A stretch of DNA of 64,000 nt from Sporosarcina sp. NCCP-2222. Its GTDB lineage: Bacteria > Bacillota > Bacilli > Bacillales_A > Planococcaceae. This document shows positions 7,494 to 55,951 of the stretch, piece by piece. Positions within the stretch are counted from its first letter, which is position 1; each line of letters opens with the position of its first letter. The stretch spans positions 92,372 to 156,371 of the forward strand of contig NZ_BQYK01000004.1 in NCBI RefSeq assembly GCF_023168145.1, in the 5' to 3' direction. Below the pieces are notes generated by a model. That model was not told the origin of the DNA, ran no database searches, and saw only the letters and a program-made list of their open reading frames with translations. The translations under genes were made by a program, and so were the position numbers.

Positions 7494-7519
7494 ACGACCG
7501 CCGTGAGCGGTCGTTTTTT
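7494..7519 (+). terminator. Intrinsic terminator of the SDR gene
   Basis: An eight-pair stem (ACGACCGC with GCGGTCGT) with a five-base loop is followed by six T residues, 20 bases after the stop codon. Confidence 0.9.
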
Positions 7520-7529
7520 GATGGGGATG

Positions 7530-7780
7530 GGGTTGGATTTTGGCGCGCAGGTCGTTTTTTTGGCGGGTATGCAGGTGGATTTGGCGTGGATGGTGCAGGA
7601 TTTGGCACGGGGACTGTTGAATTTGGCGCGGGGACAGTTGGATTTGGCACTGATGCAATCGGATTTGGCGCGAACGGGACCGGATTTGGCGCGGCTGAGT
7701 TTTTTGGCATTAGCCATGTCTGATTGCCATTCATCCCGTTATATTGGCGTTCAAACGGTGCTATTGGCGTTCAACCGAGT
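7530..7780. repeat. Tandem array B, 21-bp units with core GGATTTGGC
   Basis: The core TTGGC starts at 7540, 7560, 7581, 7602, 7623, 7644, 7665, 7686 and 7704, with spacings 20, 21, 21, 21, 21, 21, 21 and 18. Two more units at 7744 and 7764 carry the TTGGCGTTCAA form seen in array A. The best units read (G)GATTTGGCGCGGGNAC plus a variable tail. Because 21 is divisible by three, several frames translate into spurious seven-residue repeats. The array fills the gap between two terminators. Confidence 0.9.
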
Positions 7781-45204: not shown

Positions 45205-45412
45205 GCGAACCGCTGCCTGACGGCGACTGTTGCATTTCGCAACCGCGCGTAAACTTGCTCTAACCTCTCATATCTTGTTCGAACCACTCGTATATTCCAG
45301 AAACTGCTCGTATAATTTAGCAACCGCTCGTATCACATCGGCGAGTGCTCGTATATTCCGGCGACCGCTCGATTATTGTGCCGAACCGCTCGTATGTTTG
45401 TTGTACAACCGA
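45205..45412. repeat. Tandem array C, 20-21-bp units with core AACCGCTCGTAT
   Basis: The core CTCGTAT (one CTCGATT) starts at 45287, 45307, 45327, 45348, 45368 and 45389, with spacings 20, 20, 21, 20 and 21. More decayed units extend back to about 45205. The best units read (C/G)AACCGCTCGTAT plus seven or eight variable bases. The sequence differs from the TGGCG arrays, but the period and intergenic position are the same. Confidence 0.85.
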
Positions 45413-45658: not shown

Positions 45659-45770
45659 CAACCCCTTGCCGTTCTTTTCGTCTTAAACTGCTCAACTCCT
45701 TTTTTCCATGATTTACATTTCGCCAATCTATCAGCTAGGATAGAGCTATATCAGATTGCGAGGGAAGGCT

Positions 45771-46439
45771 ATGCGAACGATTTTATATATCGAAGATGAT
45801 CGGGAGATTGGAAGATTCGTAAAGGATGATTTGGAGTCACGTGGGTTTTCGGTGCATTGGCTACTGTCAGGCGAAGGTGCGGATAAATCTCTGGCAAAAG
45901 CAGATCTAGTCATTTTAGATGTAATGCTTCCGGGTCTGGACGGCTTCACCATTGGCCAGCGATTAAAACGGAAACAAGGGGATATACCGATTTTGATGCT
46001 GTCTGCGCGTACTGCCGTTGACGATAAATTGGCCGGTCTTCAATTTGCAGATGATTATTTGACGAAGCCTTTTCATCCCGATGAGCTGGCGGCGCGGATT
46101 GATGTGTTGTTGCGGAGGAGCGGAAAGGATTCTGTTGAAGAAATAGAGTTAGGTCATTTGCGAATTAATTTGAAAGAAAACCGGATTGAAACGATAGCAG
46201 GTGAAGAAATATTATTGACTGCCAAGCAGCATCAGATTTTCACATATCTCCTGCGACACCCGAATCAGATACTGACGAAAGAGCAATTGTACGAAGGCAT
46301 TTGGCAGGAGTCCTATCAGGAGGGAGATAAAACACTCCAGGTCCATATCCGTTATTTACGGGAGAAAATTGAAAAAGACCCGAGCCAGCCCACAATCATT
46401 GAAACAATTCGGGGCATCGGGTATCGGGTGAAGCAATGA
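45771..46439 (+). CDS. OmpR-family response regulator
   Basis: A 222-residue regulator with acidic pair D9-D10, phosphoacceptor Asp50 (VILDVMLPGLDG), Lys in LTKPF, and a winged-helix domain (LLTAKQHQIFTYLLRHPNQILTKEQLY ... TIRGIGYRV). The ATG at 45771 follows AGGGAAGG. Its last codons overlap the kinase gene by four bases. Together with the kinase it probably controls the transporter genes 1.8 kb downstream on the same strand. Confidence 0.9.
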   Translation: MRTILYIEDDREIGRFVKDDLESRGFSVHWLLSGEGADKSLAKADLVILDVMLPGLDGFTIGQRLKRKQGDIPILMLSARTAVDDKLAGLQFADDYLTKPFHPDELAARIDVLLRRSGKDSVEEIELGHLRINLKENRIETIAGEEILLTAKQHQIFTYLLRHPNQILTKEQLYEGIWQESYQEGDKTLQVHIRYLREKIEKDPSQPTIIETIRGIGYRVKQ

Positions 46440-47806
46440 AACGGCTGAAACGATCATTATTGGTCCAGTATGTCTTAATCATTTTATTCGCCACGATGAT
46501 TTTACCTGTTTCCATGGTCGGATTATCCATTGTTTTTTACAATACGCTGTACAAGGAAGAGTCAGTCGATCGTTTATATAACGGAACAGATCTTGAGGAA
46601 ATGTGGCATCGCACGGCGAAAGGCCTTGAACAGGCAACTGAAAAAGAGATCCGGGACAAATTCGGCCAATTGAACGAAGTCTATACAGATGCGAATCTAT
46701 ATTGGGTCGATGCACAAGGGATGACACGCGTGATGTTCCCTGCGAATCTTTCGGTACGAGAACAATGGAGTGCAACGGACGCCATTCAGTTCATGAAAGA
46801 TCATAGAGGACTGACAACAGACCCGTTCACCACGGTCGCTTTCCTTGGAGATCAAGGGATAAACGGTTTTATCGTCTTCCAATTGCCCCGTTCTGATATG
46901 GAAAGTCCAAGTGATAAATTAAGAGCACAATACAATTTTCTCTTTCCGATTGCGTTGTTAACTGTTTTTGGTGTCTTCATTCTTATTTCCACTTTGTTCT
47001 TCTACCGTATCCGCAAACGGCTTCTTCATTTGCAAGAAGCGATGTCCATATCGGATCAAAGCGGTATTCCTTCCCCGGTAGCCGTCTCACGCGAGGATGA
47101 AATTGGTCGTCTAGAATTGTCCTTCAACCGGATGGTTCAGGAAGTAGAGGAAGGCCGGCTTCGTCAAATCGAGGAAGAGGAATTGCGCAAAGAATTGATT
47201 GCCAACTTATCGCACGACCTGCGGACACCGCTGACAACCATCCGCGGTCACGCCTACCGGCTGCAACAAGAGCAATTGAGCGAAAAAGGAATGGAATCGG
47301 TTAAATTACTTGATGAAAAAATCAAGTATATGGACGGACTCATCGACAATCTTGTTTCCTATACACTATTGACGACAGGCAAGTACCCGTTCCATCCTGA
47401 ACAAATTGATATCGTTCGGCTCGTCCGTACTTCATTCGCCGCATGGTACCCGGTTTTTGAGAATTTGCAGTTTACGATGGAATTGGATATACCCGACCGG
47501 CAAATTTTCTGGCAGGCAGATCCTCAATGGCTCGGCCGAATTCTCGATAACTTGCTGCAAAATATTCATAGGCATGCAGCAGATGGCCGCTTCATTGCCA
47601 TACGGATTCAAGAAGAAACACTTGTTATTGAAGATCATGGTCCCGGGATGAAATCCAAGTCGTCCTTTCAAGGAGTCGGCATCGGGCTTTCCATCGTTTC
47701 CTTGATGATAAAGGAGATGAACTTGGCGTGGGACATCCAAACAACTACGCAAGGAACGACAATGACAATCCGTCAGAGACAAAGGAGTTATACTAATGAA
47801 CATTGA
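46436..47806 (+). CDS. Sensor histidine kinase with extracytoplasmic domain
   Basis: A 456-residue kinase: TM1 at about 11-36, an extracytoplasmic sensor of about 130 residues, TM2 at about 168-190, HAMP (about 191-245), His260 in ANLSHDLRTPLTT, an N box LDNLLQNIHRHA and G boxes EDHGPGM and GVGIGLSIV. The layout fits sensing of envelope stress or peptide antibiotics. It overlaps the DUF6176 gene by 11 bases, tying that gene to the same operon. Confidence 0.9.
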   Translation: MKRLKRSLLVQYVLIILFATMILPVSMVGLSIVFYNTLYKEESVDRLYNGTDLEEMWHRTAKGLEQATEKEIRDKFGQLNEVYTDANLYWVDAQGMTRVMFPANLSVREQWSATDAIQFMKDHRGLTTDPFTTVAFLGDQGINGFIVFQLPRSDMESPSDKLRAQYNFLFPIALLTVFGVFILISTLFFYRIRKRLLHLQEAMSISDQSGIPSPVAVSREDEIGRLELSFNRMVQEVEEGRLRQIEEEELRKELIANLSHDLRTPLTTIRGHAYRLQQEQLSEKGMESVKLLDEKIKYMDGLIDNLVSYTLLTTGKYPFHPEQIDIVRLVRTSFAAWYPVFENLQFTMELDIPDRQIFWQADPQWLGRILDNLLQNIHRHAADGRFIAIRIQEETLVIEDHGPGMKSKSSFQGVGIGLSIVSLMIKEMNLAWDIQTTTQGTTMTIRQRQRSYTNEH

Positions 47807-48143
47807 ACTTACTAGATACCGCGTAATAGAAGGAAAATCAGATCGTGTGGATGAATGGCTGGCGTTTCTAAATGACAATATGGATGAGGTACTTGTTACG
47901 TTGGAAGGTGAAAAGATGTACGTGGAAACGATCTTTCGCGAGACGTTGAACGGAGAAGAATACTTATATTGGTATTCCGTACGTGGTGAGGGCGGCCAAG
48001 ACGTGGAAGAATCAGAGCATTGGATTGATAAGCAGCACCTCGCCTATTGGGATGAATGTATTGATGCCTCCTTTGGATCAAAAGATTTAACTACCGAAGT
48101 GGTTATGATACCAAAGAAAATCAGAAGTCACATGGAAGACTAA
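47796..48143 (+). CDS. DUF6176-family small protein
   Basis: A 115-residue cytosolic protein resembling the DUF6176 family, which has a dimeric alpha/beta-barrel look (two similar halves, ELTRYRVIEGKSDRVDEWLAFL then a strand-rich part). The family has no known function. Its start lies inside the end of the kinase gene, so it is translated with the two-component system. It is followed by a strong terminator that separates it from the ABC transporter genes. Confidence 0.75.
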   Translation: MNIELTRYRVIEGKSDRVDEWLAFLNDNMDEVLVTLEGEKMYVETIFRETLNGEEYLYWYSVRGEGGQDVEESEHWIDKQHLAYWDECIDASFGSKDLTTEVVMIPKKIRSHMED

Positions 48144-48157
48144 AAAAATCCTTACAC

Positions 48158-48196
48158 CGGCTACACTTTACACAAGTGTAGCCGATTTTATTTTTT
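48158..48196 (+). terminator. Terminator between DUF6176 and the ABC transporter operon
   Basis: A ten-pair perfect stem (CGGCTACACT with AGTGTAGCCG) with a seven-base loop is followed by ATTTTATTTTTT. Confidence 0.88.
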
Positions 48197-48268
48197 AAAC
48201 GAAATTTAAACTTCCTCACCTCTTCGATTTAACCTACCCTCGGTAAGCTGGATAGTGAGGTGATACAC

Positions 48269-49186
48269 ATGAGTGAATTCATTATTGAAACGAAAAATTT
48301 AACGAAGAAGTTTGGGGCAACGCGCGTTGTGAATCATGTTGACCTGAAGGTGAAAAAAGGAGAAATTTACGGGTTTTTAGGACCGAACGGCGCAGGAAAA
48401 ACGACAACAATCCGCATGCTGTTAGGACTAGCCCGCCCTTCAAAGGGATCCATTCACATGTTCGGAAAAGATATTCGCAAGGAAAAACTGGCCATTCTTC
48501 GGAAAGTCGGTTCTCTCGTCGAGTACCCATCCTATTATGGACATTTAACTGCCCGTGAAAATTTGGAAGCGGTCCGCGTGTTGCTGGATGTACCGAAATC
48601 ACGGATTGACGAAGTCCTTTCGATCGTTCGGCTGACAAAAGATGCAAAGCGCCCGGTTAAAGGGTTTTCTTTAGGCATGAAGCAGCGCCTCGGCATCGCA
48701 ACTGCCCTGCTCGGCAATCCGGAACTGCTCATTCTCGATGAACCGACGAACGGCCTGGACCCGTCCGGTATTTTGGAAATGCGTGAGCTGATCAAAAGCA
48801 TGCCAAAGGAACACGGTATCACGATTGTTGTGTCCAGTCACTTGCTGTCGGAAGTTGATCAAATGGCGACACAAGTCGGCATCATTACGAAAGGTCGTAT
48901 TATTTTTCAGGACTCCATCCAAAAACTGCGTGAGCAGGCATCCAGCAGCATCAAATTGACCGTGAATGACGTGGAAGCTGCATGGAAAACGCTCTTATCG
49001 AACGGGTACACGACTGATTTAGTTCAAAACAATATTTATATTGATCGCGGAACGGATGATCAGGTGGCGGCTATTGTGAAATCACTTGTAGAGCATGATT
49101 TCTCGATTTATCGTGTGGAAGAACAGAAGAAATCATTGGAGGAAATCTTCCTTGAGCTGACAGGCAAGGAGGGCGGGCTTCTATGA
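48269..49186 (+). CDS. ABC transporter ATPase, BcrA/lantibiotic-immunity type
   Basis: A 305-residue ATPase with Walker A GPNGAGKT, Q-loop LVEYPSYYGHLT, signature FSLGMKQR, Walker B LLILDEPTNGLDPSG and H-loop VSSHLLSEV. A roughly 85-residue C-terminal extension is typical of BcrA/LanF ATPases. The ATG at 48269 has GAGGTG six bases upstream; the GTG at 48260 is inside that site. Two ABC-2 permease genes follow directly. With the upstream two-component system this resembles peptide-antibiotic self-protection modules. The substrate is unknown. Confidence 0.88.
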   Translation: MSEFIIETKNLTKKFGATRVVNHVDLKVKKGEIYGFLGPNGAGKTTTIRMLLGLARPSKGSIHMFGKDIRKEKLAILRKVGSLVEYPSYYGHLTARENLEAVRVLLDVPKSRIDEVLSIVRLTKDAKRPVKGFSLGMKQRLGIATALLGNPELLILDEPTNGLDPSGILEMRELIKSMPKEHGITIVVSSHLLSEVDQMATQVGIITKGRIIFQDSIQKLREQASSSIKLTVNDVEAAWKTLLSNGYTTDLVQNNIYIDRGTDDQVAAIVKSLVEHDFSIYRVEEQKKSLEEIFLELTGKEGGLL

Positions 49187-49893
49187 CACGAATTATGCTC
49201 TCTGAATTTATTAAAATCAAACGGAAGCTAATTCTCTTTCTCGTGGTGCTTGGACCCCTGGGCGTTGTGGGTCTCCAGGCCGTCAACTTTGGCCTCCGGT
49301 ATGACTGGCTGACCAGCCAGTATAAAGAAGATTTATGGGGAGGGCTCATCGGAGAAGTGACGATGCTTTCCGTACCGACCATATTGATTGGGCTAACCAT
49401 TCTCACATCCATGATTGCCAATATAGAGCACCAGACAAACGCATGGAAACAGCTGCTATCCCTGCCGGTTTCTAAAATGAAGGTATTTGCCGGTAAAGCG
49501 CTGCTGTCCTTTGTTCTTCTGTTCATGGCCTGTCTATTGCTGGTCGTCGGAACCATCATATTAGGCATTTCTCTCAAGTTCGGGGCAAATATTCCGATTC
49601 TGTATTTACTTAAAATGTGCTTCTTTCCGTTCCTCGCTGCCATGCCTTTTTTAGCGCTTCAAACATGGCTCGCTATCTCCATGAAGAACCAGGCCATTCC
49701 TTTAACGACAGGCATTTTAGGCACAATCGTCTCGATGTATGCGACAGGTTTCCCGGACTGGATGCCTTTGAAATGGCCTTGGCTCGTTAATGAATGGGAG
49801 AAACCGATTTACTCCGTCCTATTGGGAATTGTCACAGGACTCGGCATTAATTTGCTCAGTCTTATCGATTTTTCACGAAGGGATGTGAAATGA
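49183..49893 (+). CDS. ABC-2 permease, lantibiotic-immunity (LanE/MutE-like) type
   Basis: A 236-residue permease with six hydrophobic segments in the BcrB/LanEG pattern, including the WKQLLSLPVSKMKVFAGKAL segment that follows the second helix and is shared with the next permease. It overlaps the ATPase gene by four bases. It likely forms a heterodimeric channel with the downstream permease. Confidence 0.82.
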   Translation: MTRIMLSEFIKIKRKLILFLVVLGPLGVVGLQAVNFGLRYDWLTSQYKEDLWGGLIGEVTMLSVPTILIGLTILTSMIANIEHQTNAWKQLLSLPVSKMKVFAGKALLSFVLLFMACLLLVVGTIILGISLKFGANIPILYLLKMCFFPFLAAMPFLALQTWLAISMKNQAIPLTTGILGTIVSMYATGFPDWMPLKWPWLVNEWEKPIYSVLLGIVTGLGINLLSLIDFSRRDVK

Positions 49894-50628
49894 GTGATAG
49901 CTTTATTTAAGTCTGAGTTTTATAAACTTCGAAAGTCATCGATCTGGCTATTAATTTTTGTCAGTCCGCTGCTTTCATTTTTCATCGGCCTATTGGAGTT
50001 CAATGAAGTGCCGCAATTTGAAGGAATGCAATGGGTTACGACAATGGGCATGATGGCTATCGGCCATGCGATTCTTTTCCTTCCCCTTTTGACTGGTGTT
50101 TTTGCCAGCTTCGTCTGCCGGTATGAACATGCGGGCGGCGGCTGGAAGCAACTCCTTACCCTGCCTGTTCACCGGGGAAATGTCTATGTCGTGAAAATGC
50201 TGTTAGTCGCCCTATTGATTGGCCTGACCCAGTTGCTGTTCGTCATGGCATTACTCGTCATTGGTTGGATAAAAGGATTTCCAGCGGATATCCCATGGAA
50301 TGTAATCGGTTCAAGTATCGCCGGCGGCTGGCTGGCCTGTATGCCATTGCTCGCGCTGCAACTTTTTGTTTCTGTCGCGTGGTCCAGTTTTGCAGCTCCG
50401 CTTGCCATTAATGTCATCTTTACGATTCCAAACATGCTGATCGTCAATTCGGAGCGGTTCGGCCCTTACTATCCGTGGGCGCAGCCTTTCTTATTGATGA
50501 TGCCCGACTCGAGCGAAAGCTTCGGTGCTTTGAATGCATCAGCAGAAACGTTATTTATTGTTATTATTGGCAGCTTCGCCGTATTTTTCTTGGCAGGATT
50601 GCTTTATTTTCAGAGGAAAGAAATTTAG
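49894..50628 (+). CDS. ABC-2 permease, lantibiotic-immunity (LanG/MutG-like) type
   Basis: A 244-residue permease, paralogous to the preceding one (matching WKQLLTLPVHRGNVYVVKML segment and six helices). It starts with GTG directly after the stop codon of the first permease (TGAGTG), with the AGGGATG site inside that gene. The pair plus one ATPase is the standard composition of LanFEG-like exporters. Confidence 0.82.
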   Translation: MIALFKSEFYKLRKSSIWLLIFVSPLLSFFIGLLEFNEVPQFEGMQWVTTMGMMAIGHAILFLPLLTGVFASFVCRYEHAGGGWKQLLTLPVHRGNVYVVKMLLVALLIGLTQLLFVMALLVIGWIKGFPADIPWNVIGSSIAGGWLACMPLLALQLFVSVAWSSFAAPLAINVIFTIPNMLIVNSERFGPYYPWAQPFLLMMPDSSESFGALNASAETLFIVIIGSFAVFFLAGLLYFQRKEI

Positions 50629-50684: not shown

Positions 50685-50850
50685 TAGTCATTTGGCGCAG
50701 AAACATGCGGATTTGGCGCGCCCGTGCTCTAATTTGGCGTAAATCTTTGGTTTTTGGCGGATAACCCGTTTATATGGCGCAAGATCTTCGTATTTGGCGT
50801 CTAGGAAGGTTAATTTGGCGGTTATCCTCGCTTTTTGGCGTGTAAGACAT
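50685..50850. repeat. Tandem array D, 20-21-bp units with core ATTTGGCG
   Basis: TGGCG starts at 50693, 50714, 50735, 50755, 50775, 50795, 50816 and 50836, with spacings 21, 21, 20, 20, 20, 21 and 20. Units read (A/T)TTTGGCG plus about 12 variable bases. It lies between the last permease gene and the terminator of the convergent alarmone synthetase gene. Confidence 0.88.
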
Positions 50851-50890: not shown

Positions 50891-51673
50891 TTATTTGCTC
50901 GATACTGGCAGTTCCGATAGTTGATTCGGCAGTCCGAGGGAAGATTCAAAAACATCCTTGAACAGCAATTCGATAATCGGCTGAGGCACATTTAATGTAT
51001 CCTCAAAAATTGCCTCTTCATTGTTCTTCTTTTTGATCATCACGACTTCTTTATTAATATTCTCCATCTTGGCGTCTAATGCTGAGGCGGCCAGTGCCGC
51101 TTCTTTCAAATCATTTTTGATTCGCTGAGGAATATCCTTATCGTATTTATAGAATATCCGGTGTTCCAAACTTGCCCAGAAGTCCATGGCAATTGTCCGG
51201 ATTTGCAGTTCCACATACACGTCTTCGACCCGGTCTGACATGAATACGGGGATTTTCACGATAAGATGTAGGCTTTGGTACCCGTTCGACTTAGGATTTG
51301 TAATATAATCTTTTACCTCAACCATTTCTACATCCTTCTGATTCCCAATCATTTCGCTGATTTTAAATACATCCGATACGAAAGGACAGGTGATTCGAAT
51401 GCCGGCAATGTCCTTAATATTGTCTTTGATCGCCTCTAACGAAAACTCGATTCCTTTCCGGTGGACCTTTTTCAAAATGCTTTCCGGTGATTTCAAGCGG
51501 GAACTGCAGTGTTCGATGGGATTATAATCATGAATATGAAGAAACTCTTCCTTCAATATATTAATTTTCGTATTCATTTCATCCAGCGCAAATTTATAAA
51601 CCATGGAAAAGCGTTTTAAATCGCTCGCCACATTGCGCAAGCCGACCATGTATTGTTTTGTTAATTCGTCCAT
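50891..51673 (-). CDS. ywaC: Small alarmone synthetase, YwaC/RelP type
   Basis: A 260-residue monofunctional (p)ppGpp synthetase. It has the synthetase blocks DIAGIRITCPFVSD, DYITNPKSNGYQSLHL (GTP-binding loop), VELQIRTIAMDFWASLEH and no HD hydrolase domain. Sequence follows B. subtilis YwaC (about 210 residues) closely, with a 40-50 residue C-terminal extension not seen in YwaC. YwaC/RelP enzymes are induced by cell-wall stress, consistent with the neighbouring envelope-stress modules. Monocistronic. Confidence 0.9.
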   Translation of the reverse strand: MDELTKQYMVGLRNVASDLKRFSMVYKFALDEMNTKINILKEEFLHIHDYNPIEHCSSRLKSPESILKKVHRKGIEFSLEAIKDNIKDIAGIRITCPFVSDVFKISEMIGNQKDVEMVEVKDYITNPKSNGYQSLHLIVKIPVFMSDRVEDVYVELQIRTIAMDFWASLEHRIFYKYDKDIPQRIKNDLKEAALAASALDAKMENINKEVVMIKKKNNEEAIFEDTLNVPQPIIELLFKDVFESSLGLPNQLSELPVSSK

Positions 51674-51907: not shown

Positions 51908-52921
51908 ATGACACTTGAGTTTGTAAATGCAGAAAAACGCATTCATGATTCCTTGATTTTCCCTTCATTCAATTTAACGGTTAACAAAGGGCAAGTTGTT
52001 GCTGTCTATTCAAGCGTAAATGTCAGGGAACAGCTGATTCACCTGTTGCTAGGAAAAACACTGCTTTCCCACGGAGAAATTCGTCTTGACGAGAATCCAA
52101 AACAGCCAAACAGCGCTGGCTTTCTCTTTTTACATCATGGCTTGTATGAGCGTCTTTCTATTGCAGAGATGTTACAGTTCACGAAAAGACTTCATAGCTC
52201 TAAAACCTCAGCCGATGACATCTTGCGGTTGGTTCAGCTGGATGGGAAGCGTTCAGTCAAAATTAATCAGCTATCCTTTTCAGAGAAGAAACGTGTGCAA
52301 CTCGCTTGTTTGCTCATTCAAGATCCTGCCATCTTTGTGTTGGAAGAGCCCGATCAAAATATGGATTTGGAATCAAAACGGATTTTCTTGTCCATCCTCC
52401 AACACCTTCGGGAAGCTGGCAAAGTCGTCTTTATCCTAACAGGAAATTTAGAAAGTGCTGTGACGTCGGCCGATACCGTCTTTCAATTAGATGATAACGG
52501 ATTGCGTTCGATTCAAATGAAAGCGGATGAGGACGAAGAGACAGCTGATTCCACGGGTACGCTTGCGAGCACTCAACCTGTCCGATTTGAAAAAATACCG
52601 ACTAAGGTAAATGAAAAAATTGTCCTTTTTAACCCGCCGGAGATTGATTATATAGAAAGTAATGAAGGACAAACTTTTTTACATATTAAGGGAGAATCCT
52701 TCCCTTGTGTCTTTACACTGACAGAGCTGGAAGAACGTTTATTGCCGTTTGGCTTCTTTCGATGTCACCGTTCCTATATCGTCAATCTACAAAAAGTACG
52801 GGAAGTTGTCACATGGACAAGAAATAGTTACAGTCTTGTCCTAGAGGATATCTCCAAATCGACAATCCCACTTTCCAAATCGAAAATGGTCGAACTCAAA
52901 GAGATGCTCGGACTCAAATAA
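51908..52921 (+). CDS. Degenerate ABC-ATPase fused to LytTR DNA-binding domain
   Basis: A 337-residue fusion protein. Residues 1-200 have the order of an ABC nucleotide-binding domain, but the motifs are broken. The Walker A position reads VAVYSSVNVREQL (no GxGK[ST]) and the signature position reads QLSFSEKKRVQLA. The Walker B segment FVLEEPDQNMD keeps an acidic pair, and the H-loop His is absent. Residues 235-335 form a LytTR domain (IDYIESNEGQTFLHIKG, FFRCHRSYIVNLQKV). It should bind DNA and probably senses the state of, or docks onto, the ABC transporter encoded next. It is unlikely to hydrolyse ATP. The ATG at 51908 has GAGG seven bases upstream. Confidence 0.85.
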   Translation: MTLEFVNAEKRIHDSLIFPSFNLTVNKGQVVAVYSSVNVREQLIHLLLGKTLLSHGEIRLDENPKQPNSAGFLFLHHGLYERLSIAEMLQFTKRLHSSKTSADDILRLVQLDGKRSVKINQLSFSEKKRVQLACLLIQDPAIFVLEEPDQNMDLESKRIFLSILQHLREAGKVVFILTGNLESAVTSADTVFQLDDNGLRSIQMKADEDEETADSTGTLASTQPVRFEKIPTKVNEKIVLFNPPEIDYIESNEGQTFLHIKGESFPCVFTLTELEERLLPFGFFRCHRSYIVNLQKVREVVTWTRNSYSLVLEDISKSTIPLSKSKMVELKEMLGLK

Positions 52922-52931
52922 TGTGGAAAAA

Positions 52932-52966
52932 CCGATTATTTCCCCGGAAATATTTCGGCTTTTTTC
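52932..52966 (+). terminator. Terminator of the ABC-LytTR gene
   Basis: An imperfect hairpin (CCGA..ATTTCC with GGAAAT..TCGG) is followed by CTTTTTT, 11 bases after the stop codon. Confidence 0.7.
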
Positions 52967-53196
52967 GCTTGTCCAATCGTTTTCTGGCATGTCCTGTCTC
53001 TAGCAGCAATTTAAACTAGTAAATTGGCGCTGTTTACTGAATAAGTTTTTAGTTTTCGAGACTCCATTCACGGTTCCATTGCTCCATTGACCAGCTCGGT
53101 TACTCTTTTCATCGGGAATATACTGCTCGCCTCTTCATTTCCTAGTAATCTAAGATTGCAGATACGAAATGAAGAACAATTCCCAGGAGGATGAAA

Positions 53197-54045
53197 ATGG
53201 AAAACATTATCGAAGTGAAAAACCTTGAGAAAATCTTCTCTAATCAAAAAGCCATTGAGAGTGTTGATTTCCAAGTGAGACGAGGCGAGATTTTCGGTTT
53301 TCTCGGCCCGAGCGGCTCAGGGAAAACAACAACTATTAAAATATTGACCGGGCAATTGGTGCCAACAGGTGGTGAAGCGCTTGTTTTTGGAGAGTCTGTC
53401 TCGAAGTTGAAACAGCCCGCCTATCGTAAACGGTTTGGTGTTTTAACGGATAACAGCGGCCTGTATGGAAGACTTTCCATCTATGATAATTTAAAACTTT
53501 ATTGCGATTTGTACGATGTTCCATACGCAAAAATTGGCGAAGTTCTCGCGGCTGTCAATTTGCAGGAAGATGAGAAGAAACGGATCTCTACTTTATCAAA
53601 AGGAATGACGCAGCGAGTCACGTTAGCCCGCGCCCTTTTGCATGAACCGGAGCTGTTATTCCTAGATGAGCCGACATCAGCTCTTGATCCGGTGAACACA
53701 CTCCATATATATGAAGGATTGCGTGCCTTGAATAAGAAAGGCACGACAATATTCCTGACGACTCATGACATGCAAGAAGCGGAGACACTTTGCGATCGAG
53801 TCGCTTTTTTAAACAAGGGTCGGATTCAATTACTGGATGCACCTGGCAAGTTAAAGAAAAGGTTTTCCGACTCGACCATTACAGTCGAGCTGAAAAGCGA
53901 GGAAAAAATCATACTGCCCGCCGGTGCTGAAGGAGCACAGCAGCTTTATGATTACATGCAAGCCAATGAAGTAGAGACAATCCACTCAAACGAGCCAACA
54001 CTCGGTGACATTTTTGTACAAGTGACAGGGAGGAAACTAGCATGA
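53197..54045 (+). CDS. ABC transporter ATPase next to the LytTR regulator
   Basis: A 282-residue ATPase with intact Walker A GPSGSGKT, signature LSKGMTQR, Walker B LLFLDEPTSALDPV and H-loop TTHDMQEAE, followed by a C-terminal extension of about 70 residues. The ATG at 53197 has AGGAGG six bases upstream; the ATG at 53191 overlaps that site. The permease gene overlaps by four bases. The intact motifs contrast with the broken copy in the upstream regulator. The substrate is probably a peptide or lipid-linked molecule, by subfamily only. Confidence 0.88.
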   Translation: MENIIEVKNLEKIFSNQKAIESVDFQVRRGEIFGFLGPSGSGKTTTIKILTGQLVPTGGEALVFGESVSKLKQPAYRKRFGVLTDNSGLYGRLSIYDNLKLYCDLYDVPYAKIGEVLAAVNLQEDEKKRISTLSKGMTQRVTLARALLHEPELLFLDEPTSALDPVNTLHIYEGLRALNKKGTTIFLTTHDMQEAETLCDRVAFLNKGRIQLLDAPGKLKKRFSDSTITVELKSEEKIILPAGAEGAQQLYDYMQANEVETIHSNEPTLGDIFVQVTGRKLA

Positions 54046-54749
54046 CATTTTCTTGGAAACGGGTAAACGCAATATTTATGAAAGATTATAAAGATTTTTC
54101 ACGGAACTTTGCAGTGTCTATTGTGATTTTCTTGTCACCCGTTCTGGCAGCCATTTATGGCCGAATTGGCGTGACAGCAATTGAGTCCCATTATATGCTG
54201 ATTAATCTTACTTTTGCGATGGTAGCGGCTTTTGTACAAAGCTGTCTTATTGCAGAGGAGAAAGAAAAGAACACCTTGCGCGGATTGATGTTATCTCCCG
54301 CCAGCACGACTGAAATTTTGACGGGCAAAAGCTTATTATCCTTGGTGTTAACACTTTTCACTATTTTGTTGAGTATGTTTTTGGCGGAATATAAACCGGC
54401 GAATATTGCAGTTGTGGCGATTGCCATCCTATTGTCCGCCCTATTTTATATTGCTCTTGGTACCTTGCTTGGCCTGTTTGCTAAGTCAGTAATGGAGGCA
54501 TCTGTCATTGTATTGCCTGTTATGGTCATCTTCTCATTCGGGACATTCATTACTTCACTTGCAGAACAGTATCCGATTTTAAAAGCGGCGACTTATTTGC
54601 CTAATATCCAGCTCCTTGAAATCGGGATCAAAGTCGAAGCCGGAGCCGGGTTTGGGGATGTATGGCTGCAGCTGGCCGTCATTGCAGCATGGGTTGTTGT
54701 GATGTTTATGCTTACTGCTGTTGTTTATAGAAAGCGAATGGTTGATTAA
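54042..54749 (+). CDS. ABC-2 type permease
   Basis: A 235-residue permease with six hydrophobic segments (start about residue 25). It contains AEEKEKNTLRGLMLSPASTTEILTGKSL, the ABC-2 coupling segment. It pairs with the upstream ATPase, probably as a homodimer. A 26-codon membrane peptide gene and an M50 protease gene follow within 105 bases, so all four probably form one transcription unit. Confidence 0.85.
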   Translation: MTFSWKRVNAIFMKDYKDFSRNFAVSIVIFLSPVLAAIYGRIGVTAIESHYMLINLTFAMVAAFVQSCLIAEEKEKNTLRGLMLSPASTTEILTGKSLLSLVLTLFTILLSMFLAEYKPANIAVVAIAILLSALFYIALGTLLGLFAKSVMEASVIVLPVMVIFSFGTFITSLAEQYPILKAATYLPNIQLLEIGIKVEAGAGFGDVWLQLAVIAAWVVVMFMLTAVVYRKRMVD

Positions 54750-54762
54750 GGGGGGATTTGAT

Positions 54763-54843
54763 ATGAAACAAGTTGGACGGATACTGATCGGATTCTTGGC
54801 AGGCGTCGTGCTCATCTTCATTTATAAGACATTTTTCAGCTAG
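54763..54843 (+). CDS. 26-residue single-helix membrane peptide
   Basis: A short frame starts at an ATG with AAGGGGGG seven bases upstream and ends 10 bases before the protease gene. It encodes MKQVGRILIGFLAG followed by a hydrophobic stretch and KTFFS, a single transmembrane helix with basic N-terminus. Its first residues copy those of the protease (MKQVG, helix at the same place). It may be a peptide substrate, a regulator of the protease or transporter, or a duplicated start of the protease gene that kept its translation signal. Confidence 0.6.
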   Translation: MKQVGRILIGFLAGVVLIFIYKTFFS

Positions 54844-54853
54844 AGGTGACAAT

Positions 54854-55951
54854 ATGAAACAGGTAGGTTCAGCTTTACTTGGGGCCGTCATTGGTTTATT
54901 GGCGGTCCTGTATTTTATTTTATATCCAGAAGCATGGTCTATAGGCATGATTGTCAGCATGGTCTTGTATGCTCTCGTCAGTTTCGCCCTGACTGTTCTT
55001 ATTCACGAAGCAGGGCATGCGCTGTTTGGACTTTCACAAGGAATGAAATTATTAAATATTAGTGTTGGTCCCATTGTTTTGGAGCAGCATGGAGGCAAAT
55101 TCCTTTTCCACTGGATCCCCTCCTCCTTAGGATACGTTGGACGGGCAATGATGGGGTTTTCTGAGAAGTTGGAACTTGAAGATATGCGACGCCGATTAAT
55201 TCGTTATATTTATGGCGGGCCGCTCATGAACATAGGAATCAGCATTCTTTCCATCGTGCTGGCATTTAGCGTCTGGCACCATCCCTTTCTTCTCATCTTC
55301 GGTCTCTTAAATTTCCTGCTCGGTGCTTCGAATTTACAACCGGCGACAGTCAAATCTGTGTTTACTGACGGTTTGGTCATCAAGAAATTGAAAACGGAGC
55401 CTTTGCATGAATCTGCCCTCTTGTTGGGCCATCAAATTTTGTTGGAAGAATCGCGAAATACGGATGTAAAACAGTGGAATCCGGCATTGATTGATACGGT
55501 TGAACAATTAATCACCTCTGGGAAGGATCCGTCCGCCACAAGTTTTTTGCATACAATCAATTACTTTCACCTTCCGGAACATGCTGAAAAAGCTGCATCG
55601 GTTGGACTCCAGACAGCCTTTACCCGTGCAGGAAAGACGGATGACCTGTACGCTGATATAGCCGATATCTCGTACGCCACAGCTCTTTTTTTCACCGGCC
55701 GGCTTGCAAGCTATCCCGGCATTGAAAACGCTCTAGAATCCATCGGAAAACTGGATGCTGTTACAGATACGAAAAGAAATGCGTTTTTGTCTTACATACA
55801 AGGAGATATACAAAACGCTGTTCTGCTGTTAAAGAAAGCAATCGAACTGCTCGGGGTCTGGCATCCCTTATACTTACGCGGAGAGATGGAAAAAAAGCTT
55901 CTACATCAAATGATCGACTGGATGGAGAATGAAAAAACTACAATCAGTTGA
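54854..55951 (+). CDS. M50 (site-2-protease-like) metallopeptidase
   Basis: A 365-residue intramembrane metalloprotease. Helix 2 carries the zinc motif HEAGH (His51, Glu52, His55). Asp172 in NLQPATVKSVFTDG fits the third zinc ligand, and GGPLMN (121-126) is a conserved companion motif. About five helices are followed by a soluble C-terminal half of about 180 residues with helical-repeat character. M50 enzymes cut within membrane helices of regulators or peptide precursors. The ATG at 54854 has AGAGGTG at good spacing. Its position after an ABC transporter and a single-helix peptide gene suggests those are its partners. Confidence 0.85.
   Translation: MKQVGSALLGAVIGLLAVLYFILYPEAWSIGMIVSMVLYALVSFALTVLIHEAGHALFGLSQGMKLLNISVGPIVLEQHGGKFLFHWIPSSLGYVGRAMMGFSEKLELEDMRRRLIRYIYGGPLMNIGISILSIVLAFSVWHHPFLLIFGLLNFLLGASNLQPATVKSVFTDGLVIKKLKTEPLHESALLLGHQILLEESRNTDVKQWNPALIDTVEQLITSGKDPSATSFLHTINYFHLPEHAEKAASVGLQTAFTRAGKTDDLYADIADISYATALFFTGRLASYPGIENALESIGKLDAVTDTKRNAFLSYIQGDIQNAVLLLKKAIELLGVWHPLYLRGEMEKKLLHQMIDWMENEKTTIS

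Follow-up and report, generated by a model that had tools for sequence, protein, structure and literature searches.

The window analysed here is a stretch of 64,000 nucleotides from the soil bacterium Sporosarcina sp. NCCP-2222 (contig NZ_BQYK01000004.1, positions 92,372 to 156,371), and it contains a locus at which a LytTR-type transcription factor with an ATP-binding cassette (ABC) domain stands next to an ABC exporter. On the forward strand, read 5' to 3', the regulator gene is followed by a promoter region, the genes of an ABC ATPase and an ABC-2 type permease, a gene for a 26-residue peptide, and the gene of an M50 protease. An earlier note, made from the sequence alone, had described this order of elements on one strand, and all of them are present (window coordinates):

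51908..52921, + strand: ABC-LytTR regulator of 337 amino acids, with a nucleotide-binding domain (NBD) at about residues 1-200, a disordered linker at 205-227 and a LytTR DNA-binding domain at about 228-337
53197..54045, + strand: ABC ATPase of the DrrA/ABCA type, every catalytic motif intact
54042..54749, + strand: ABC-2 type permease of 235 amino acids (Pfam ABC2_membrane), with a 4-nt overlap with the ATPase gene
54763..54843, + strand: single-helix membrane peptide of 26 amino acids, accessory, found in one clade
54854..55951, + strand: M50 (site-2-type) metalloprotease, accessory, with HEAGH and TDG motifs and a C-terminal helical domain that resembles tetratricopeptide repeats (TPR)

In Pfam, the ATPase scored with ABC_tran, the permease with ABC2_membrane and the product of the last gene with Peptidase_M50. 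The closest named relative is S. cyprini, with 94% at the regulator.

The conserved unit of this locus is the combination of regulator, ATPase and permease, and it is spread over the Bacillales. The regulator homologues comprise 109 distinct sequences, those fetched from named genomes number 80, and the genus survey covers 68 Sporosarcina genomes. Orthologues of ATPase and permease are encoded downstream on the same strand in all cases from named genomes (80/80), which belong to Sporosarcina, Siminovitchia, Lysinibacillus, Ureibacillus, Viridibacillus, Planococcus, Paenibacillus, Alkalicoccus and other genera. Within Sporosarcina, the same 37 of the 68 genomes have both regulator and permease, and the other 31 have neither, which is an agreement in 68/68 genomes. 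As the cassette was found again at every homologous locus examined, the arrangement is more than a chance neighbourhood. The proposal of a linked regulator-transporter system that operates without a histidine kinase is well supported by this perfect co-occurrence, and the outcome that the earlier note had named as fatal to it, ABC-LytTR genes without the transporter in most genomes, is the opposite of what is seen. The note had, however, regarded the locus as one set of four elements, and in this respect only the linkage of regulator, ATPase and permease stands. Most cassettes lack both the peptide and the M50 gene, the M50 gene is outside the core unit, and the locus is not one simple operon, because a promoter with repeats separates the regulator gene from the ATPase gene.

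The regulator matches LytTR with E=1e-27 at residues 237-334 and ABC_tran with E=2e-8 at residues 43-148. PF00005 and PF04397 are both above the gathering threshold and the fold agrees, which places the protein in the ABC-LytTR architecture. The AlphaFold model (predicted local distance difference test score, pLDDT, 84.5) has a confident NBD fold and a disordered linker to the LytTR part, and VIA-align recognizes the ABC NBD fold with Z up to 25; the ABC domain fills the list of VIA-align matches, and a LytTR-domain match is absent from that list. At the position of Walker A, this domain reads SSVNVREQ, the signature is LSFSE, and the H-loop position is occupied by G or N. The loss of Walker A, signature glycines and H-loop histidine, which had been claimed for the one protein, extends to 109/109 homologues, and the motifs of a functional ATPase (Walker A GxxGxGK[ST] and an LSGGQ-like signature) are found in 0/109 of them, whereas the neighbouring ATPase keeps these and all other catalytic motifs, as had also been noted. 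Walker B persists as (L)EEP with an invariant catalytic Glu. Because all 109 homologues share a degenerate ABC domain, the loss of the ATP motifs is ancestral, and this family-wide degeneration favours the idea of a pseudo-ABC sensor domain. Judged by its motifs, the domain is predicted to be unable to use ATP. In Lysinibacillus/Planococcus-type regulators, about 25 residues after Walker A are deleted. Conservation is much higher in the LytTR domain than in the ABC domain, with mean column entropies of 0.86 and 2.03 bits, respectively. On a plasmid of P. megaterium DSM 32 (locus L188, 5974-7079), the ABC-LytTR protein is annotated as two adjacent open reading frames, one for the ABC part and one for the LytTR part; in the sister plasmid it is a single gene.

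RefSeq labels the homologues either as LytTR family transcriptional regulator or as ATP-binding cassette domain protein, and the ABC-LytTR architecture, which has the same domain order as the regulator studied here, is reportedly listed in surveys of LytTR domains. The domain architecture is already in database annotation; literature searches found no functional study of ABC-LytTR proteins.

What could such a regulator bind? Between the regulator and ATPase genes there are direct repeats of the form RCTCYWTTCRYC, which are 10 bp long, occur in two to four copies 20-21 bp apart, and end 10 bp upstream of the -35 element of a promoter. In the Sporosarcina locus, these features are as follows:

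53061..53072, + strand: direct repeat 1, ACTCCATTCACG, predicted LytTR site
53081..53092, + strand: direct repeat 2, GCTCCATTGACC, 20 bp from repeat 1
53102..53113, + strand: direct repeat 3, ACTCTTTTCATC, 21 bp from repeat 2, ending 10 bp before a -35-like element
53123..53151, + strand: predicted activator-dependent promoter, with a weak -35 CTGCTC (53123-53128), 17 bp, and a -10 TAATCT (53146-53151)

In statistics that are drawn from related, non-independent sequences, de novo counting found the 21-bp spacing in 53 cases versus 3.3 in shuffles and the 20-bp spacing in 20 cases, and a -10-like hexamer lies exactly 43 bp after the last repeat in 51 of 87 loci, with a shuffle maximum of 5 at any position. 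A weak -35 (xTGxxC) is found 17 bp before this hexamer. The two-copy pattern has a single location in the 4-Mb host genome, which is this locus. It gave 26 matches in the 68 genus genomes, of which 22 coincide in their coordinates with the cassette, with two matches for a reversed control pattern, and three matches in 16 genomes of other genera, each at cassette coordinates. As other 20-21-bp periodic arrays exist in the window and in the genus (ATCACCGACTC arrays), one could suspect that the repeats are just another dispersed intergenic repeat family and not operators at all. We give this hardly any credence, as this array is confined to one place in the host genome, has a sequence that several genera share, and keeps a fixed distance to the -10, which the dispersed arrays do not. 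Two other operator candidates were rejected: the classical LytTR consensus [TA][AC][CA]GTTN[AG][TG], for which the host intergenic region contains zero pairs, and the ATCACCGACTC arrays upstream of the regulator, which are dispersed repeats of a few genomes.

The predicted sites resemble those of the LytTR regulatory systems (LRS), in which the repeats are mostly 12 bp apart, are strongly biased to a position 10 bp upstream of the -35, and serve as activator sites (PMC6193735). As repeat length, spacing and position match such sites, the regulator would most likely act locally, as an activator dedicated to the exporter, and bind the predicted repeats to switch on the exporter genes. LRS such as HdrRM, BrsRM and SMU_433/434 likewise employ a LytTR activator without a kinase, some of them together with ABC transporter genes, and direct repeats about 21 bp apart and about 10 bp upstream of the -35 are a further likeness to the sites predicted here (PMC6193735). 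It could in principle be that the cassette is a true LRS, in which the regulator would switch on its own operon and be held in check by a membrane protein, either the permease or the small peptide. The repeat geometry and the presence of ABC transporters in several LRS agree with this (PMC6193735). However, the LRS regulators have their repeats upstream of the regulator operon; here they are placed after the regulator gene, in the gap before the transporter genes, and upstream of the regulator gene there is no excess of repeats and none that matches the operator repeats, and a direct LRS-like autoregulation is therefore not indicated. Moreover, the regulator contains a pseudo-ABC domain, there is no dedicated inhibitor, and most members have no separate gene that could encode one. 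We therefore regard a true LRS as unlikely; the DNA element is LRS-like.

For the pseudo-ABC domain, a docking on the transporter would be the best mechanism that we can infer, with moderate support. The main segment that is retained in its first half is Y80-E-R-L-S/T...E87, in the Q-loop/coupling segment, where Tyr80, Arg82, Leu83 and Glu87 are 94-100% conserved among the regulator homologues. In the alignment, this segment falls on the region by which functional ABC ATPases touch the coupling helices of the permease. There is a precedent for docking, because MalK, an ABC ATPase, holds the activator MalT at the membrane, and the idle MalFGK2 complex is a proven case of a transporter-held activator (PMC10427625). 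The proposed likeness is that the transporter retains the activator at the membrane for as long as no substrate is transported, but MalT belongs to the STAND proteins and has neither an ABC nor a LytTR domain, and MalFGK2 is a maltose importer and not an exporter (PMC10427625).

Alternatively, the regulator could activate or repress the exporter genes without any contact to the exporter, and its pseudo-ABC domain would then be a dimerisation scaffold or bind a small cytosolic ligand. Degenerate domains frequently turn into scaffolds, the fold is intact while Walker A and signature, the motifs of the dimer side, are gone, and LytTR factors commonly act as dimers on paired repeats. The strict pairing with one specific transporter and the retained coupling-helix segment fit docking better, and we consider the scaffold or ligand-binding role somewhat unlikely. 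Several points nevertheless weigh against the docking regulator: the retained residues of the coupling segment are also common in ordinary ABC ATPases, and their conservation alone is no proof of docking; the pseudo-NBD could be only a dimerisation module or the binder of another ligand; activation rather than repression is deduced from the site position; and Planococcus, Solibacillus and one Paenibacillus group have a weak or divergent repeat motif.

On balance, it is probable that the locus encodes a dedicated, kinase-free regulator-exporter cassette, in which the docking of the regulator on the exporter is the less certain part. The regulator would bind the predicted repeats and switch on the exporter genes, and its pseudo-NBD may, with less certainty, dock on the permease or on the ATPase of the exporter. 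The idle exporter would hold the regulator at the membrane, and an exporter engaged with substrate would free it, as in the MalT-MalK logic; the level of the exporter would thereby be capped through negative feedback. The substrate would most likely be a membrane-active peptide or a lipid-like toxin. A bolder version can be put forward tentatively: that an ATP-dead ABC motor serves as the receiver, replacing the real motor or docking beside it, and that the regulator reads exporter activity directly, as a form of flux sensing that needs no kinase and is widespread in Bacillales.

How do the two accessory genes relate to this cassette? The short membrane peptide gene that had been proposed is real. 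It has homologues at 23 distinct loci, which encode 22-27 amino acids after the permease gene, begin with MK (one with MR) and have an aromatic or hydrophobic tail; one candidate (locus L153), which the filter had passed wrongly, was left out of the 23. Because codon changes at positions 1/2/3 amount to 62/32/103 (15 pairs) and the ratio of non-synonymous to synonymous changes (pN/pS) is about 0.38, the peptide is under purifying selection. It is confined to one clade of the regulator tree and missing in many members, and it would probably be a small accessory subunit of the exporter. The peptide (54763-54843) and the first transmembrane helix (TM1) of the M50 protein (54854-54930) are alike, and both begin with MKQVG in the host. 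The likeness has a column-shuffle p of 1.5e-4, or 0.003-0.006 when only the hydrophobic stretch is shuffled, and a relation of the two helices by duplication is possible.

M50 homologues (E<1e-6) were found in 8 of the 68 genus genomes; all eight (8/8) adjoin the cassette and also carry the peptide gene. His51, Glu52, His55 and Asp172 are invariant in 13 M50 homologues, in agreement with the HExxH motif and distal Asp (xDG) of site-2 proteases. The model consists of an M50 core and the helical TPR-like C-terminal part; Foldseek lists S2P and RseP among its matches with probability 1.0 and weak E-values, and Pfam detects Peptidase_M50 only and no PDZ domain, the C-terminal part being predicted as helical and TPR-like. 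More distant M50 homologues (30-34%) in two other genera lie amid unrelated genes and were rejected as cassette partners, as they are not linked to the cassette.

On Priestia megaterium plasmids, a site-2 protease of the same subfamily (27% identity to the host M50, E=4e-13) is encoded directly upstream of a regulator-ATPase-permease cassette, beside a mersacidin-family lantibiotic cluster. This protease was found via the regulator; the plasmid search with the host M50 as query gave no match at E 1e-4. A P. aryabhattai plasmid carries the cassette without M50 or lantibiotic genes. As the M50 gene recurs beside the cassette on the Priestia plasmids, it is a linked accessory, and its position downstream in Sporosarcina and upstream in Priestia looks like the result of independent associations. 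This repeated association, in one instance next to a lantibiotic cluster, suggests that resistance to membrane-active peptides, or their handling, is involved. The protease would be a facultative partner, trimming peptides or damaged proteins of the membrane, and the exporter would clear the fragments.

The earlier note had seen the core of a circuit in the protease, which would cut the 26-residue peptide, and in the exporter, which would export the product as a signal or clear it. Eep/RseP proteases do act with PptAB/EcsAB in the processing and export of linear peptides (PMC7157817), the peptide gene accompanies every M50 gene in the genus, and the peptide resembles TM1 of the protease. Nevertheless, this circuit is quite improbable and cannot be retained as the core: the peptide is found without the M50 gene at 15 of its 23 loci, the bases read after the permease of the Priestia cassette, which has an M50, contain no such peptide, and most cassettes have neither gene. 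Moreover, the close relative S. luteola S00266 (locus L010) has an intact peptide, whereas all that is left of its M50 gene is short pieces from the beginning and the end.

A functional tie between an M50 protease and an ABC exporter is also known from EcsAB-RasP and PptAB-Eep, as RasP needs EcsA in B. subtilis (PMC10128001) and the Eep-EcsAB pair of staphylococci exports or clears peptides made in the membrane (PMC7157817). PDB entry 9a6w, by its title an integrative RasP-EcsA model, is among the fold matches of the regulator model. These systems, however, have no ABC-LytTR regulator, and the host permease has no EcsB match in Pfam at E 0.001 but matches only ABC2_membrane families; the M50 protein of the host also differs by its TPR-like tail and the lack of a PDZ match, and in both its permease and its protease family the system described here is distinct from EcsAB-RasP. 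The yydFGHIJ epipeptide operon carries peptide, M50 and ABC genes, whereas the core cassette has neither peptide nor M50 gene in most genomes. The absence of a radical-SAM enzyme, by which the locus had been set apart from the yyd operon, holds for the genes scanned from 50.9 to 56.3 kb.

Some features around the cassette are worth recording. One of them directly follows the regulator gene:

52937..52952, no strand: palindrome TATTTCCCCGGAAATA, directly after the regulator stop and, in the host, part of a terminator-like hairpin with a T run (by eye)

Its core TTTCCNNGGAAA is present at 57 of the 109 loci. The palindrome TATTTCCNNGGAAATA was rejected as a cassette-specific site, as it is single-copy in the host but occurs at several other loci in many relatives; in several of them it is found at 3-7 other genomic places, far more commonly than the reversed control pattern. 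It could be a terminator stem or the operator of another factor. In some Sporosarcina, the region upstream of the regulator gene contains arrays of 21-bp units (TTTATCACCGACTC...; loci L139, L013, L135 and L014), and arrays of the TTTATCACCGACTC type occur at many loci in a few genomes, with 30 matches in one genome. In the window, about seven copies of ATTTGGCG with a spacing of 20-22 bp are located in the intergenic stretch 50690-50850, and similar 20-21-bp periodic arrays at 2753-2859, 7509-7774 and 45254-45395 apparently belong to a dispersed intergenic repeat class. Divergent from the regulator gene, at 50891-51673 on the - strand, lies the gene of a small alarmone synthetase (RelA_SpoT domain only, YjbM-like). 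Just upstream, 45756-50628 on the + strand, annotated by reading only, is a LanFEG/BcrAB-like locus in the style of lantibiotic immunity, with a response regulator (45756-46439), a histidine kinase (46436-47806), an ABC ATPase (48260-49186) and two ABC-2 permeases (49183-50628).

LytTR factors usually receive their input from histidine kinases or membrane inhibitors; in the cassette described here, the proposed input domain is a dead transporter motor, and the regulators form a large, apparently unstudied family that is locked to one exporter and one promoter. If the proposed docking is true, a transporter would report its own activity to a transcription factor via a pseudo-ATPase, a question that can be tested directly thanks to the predicted operator, an exporter of its own and cleanly delimited genes.

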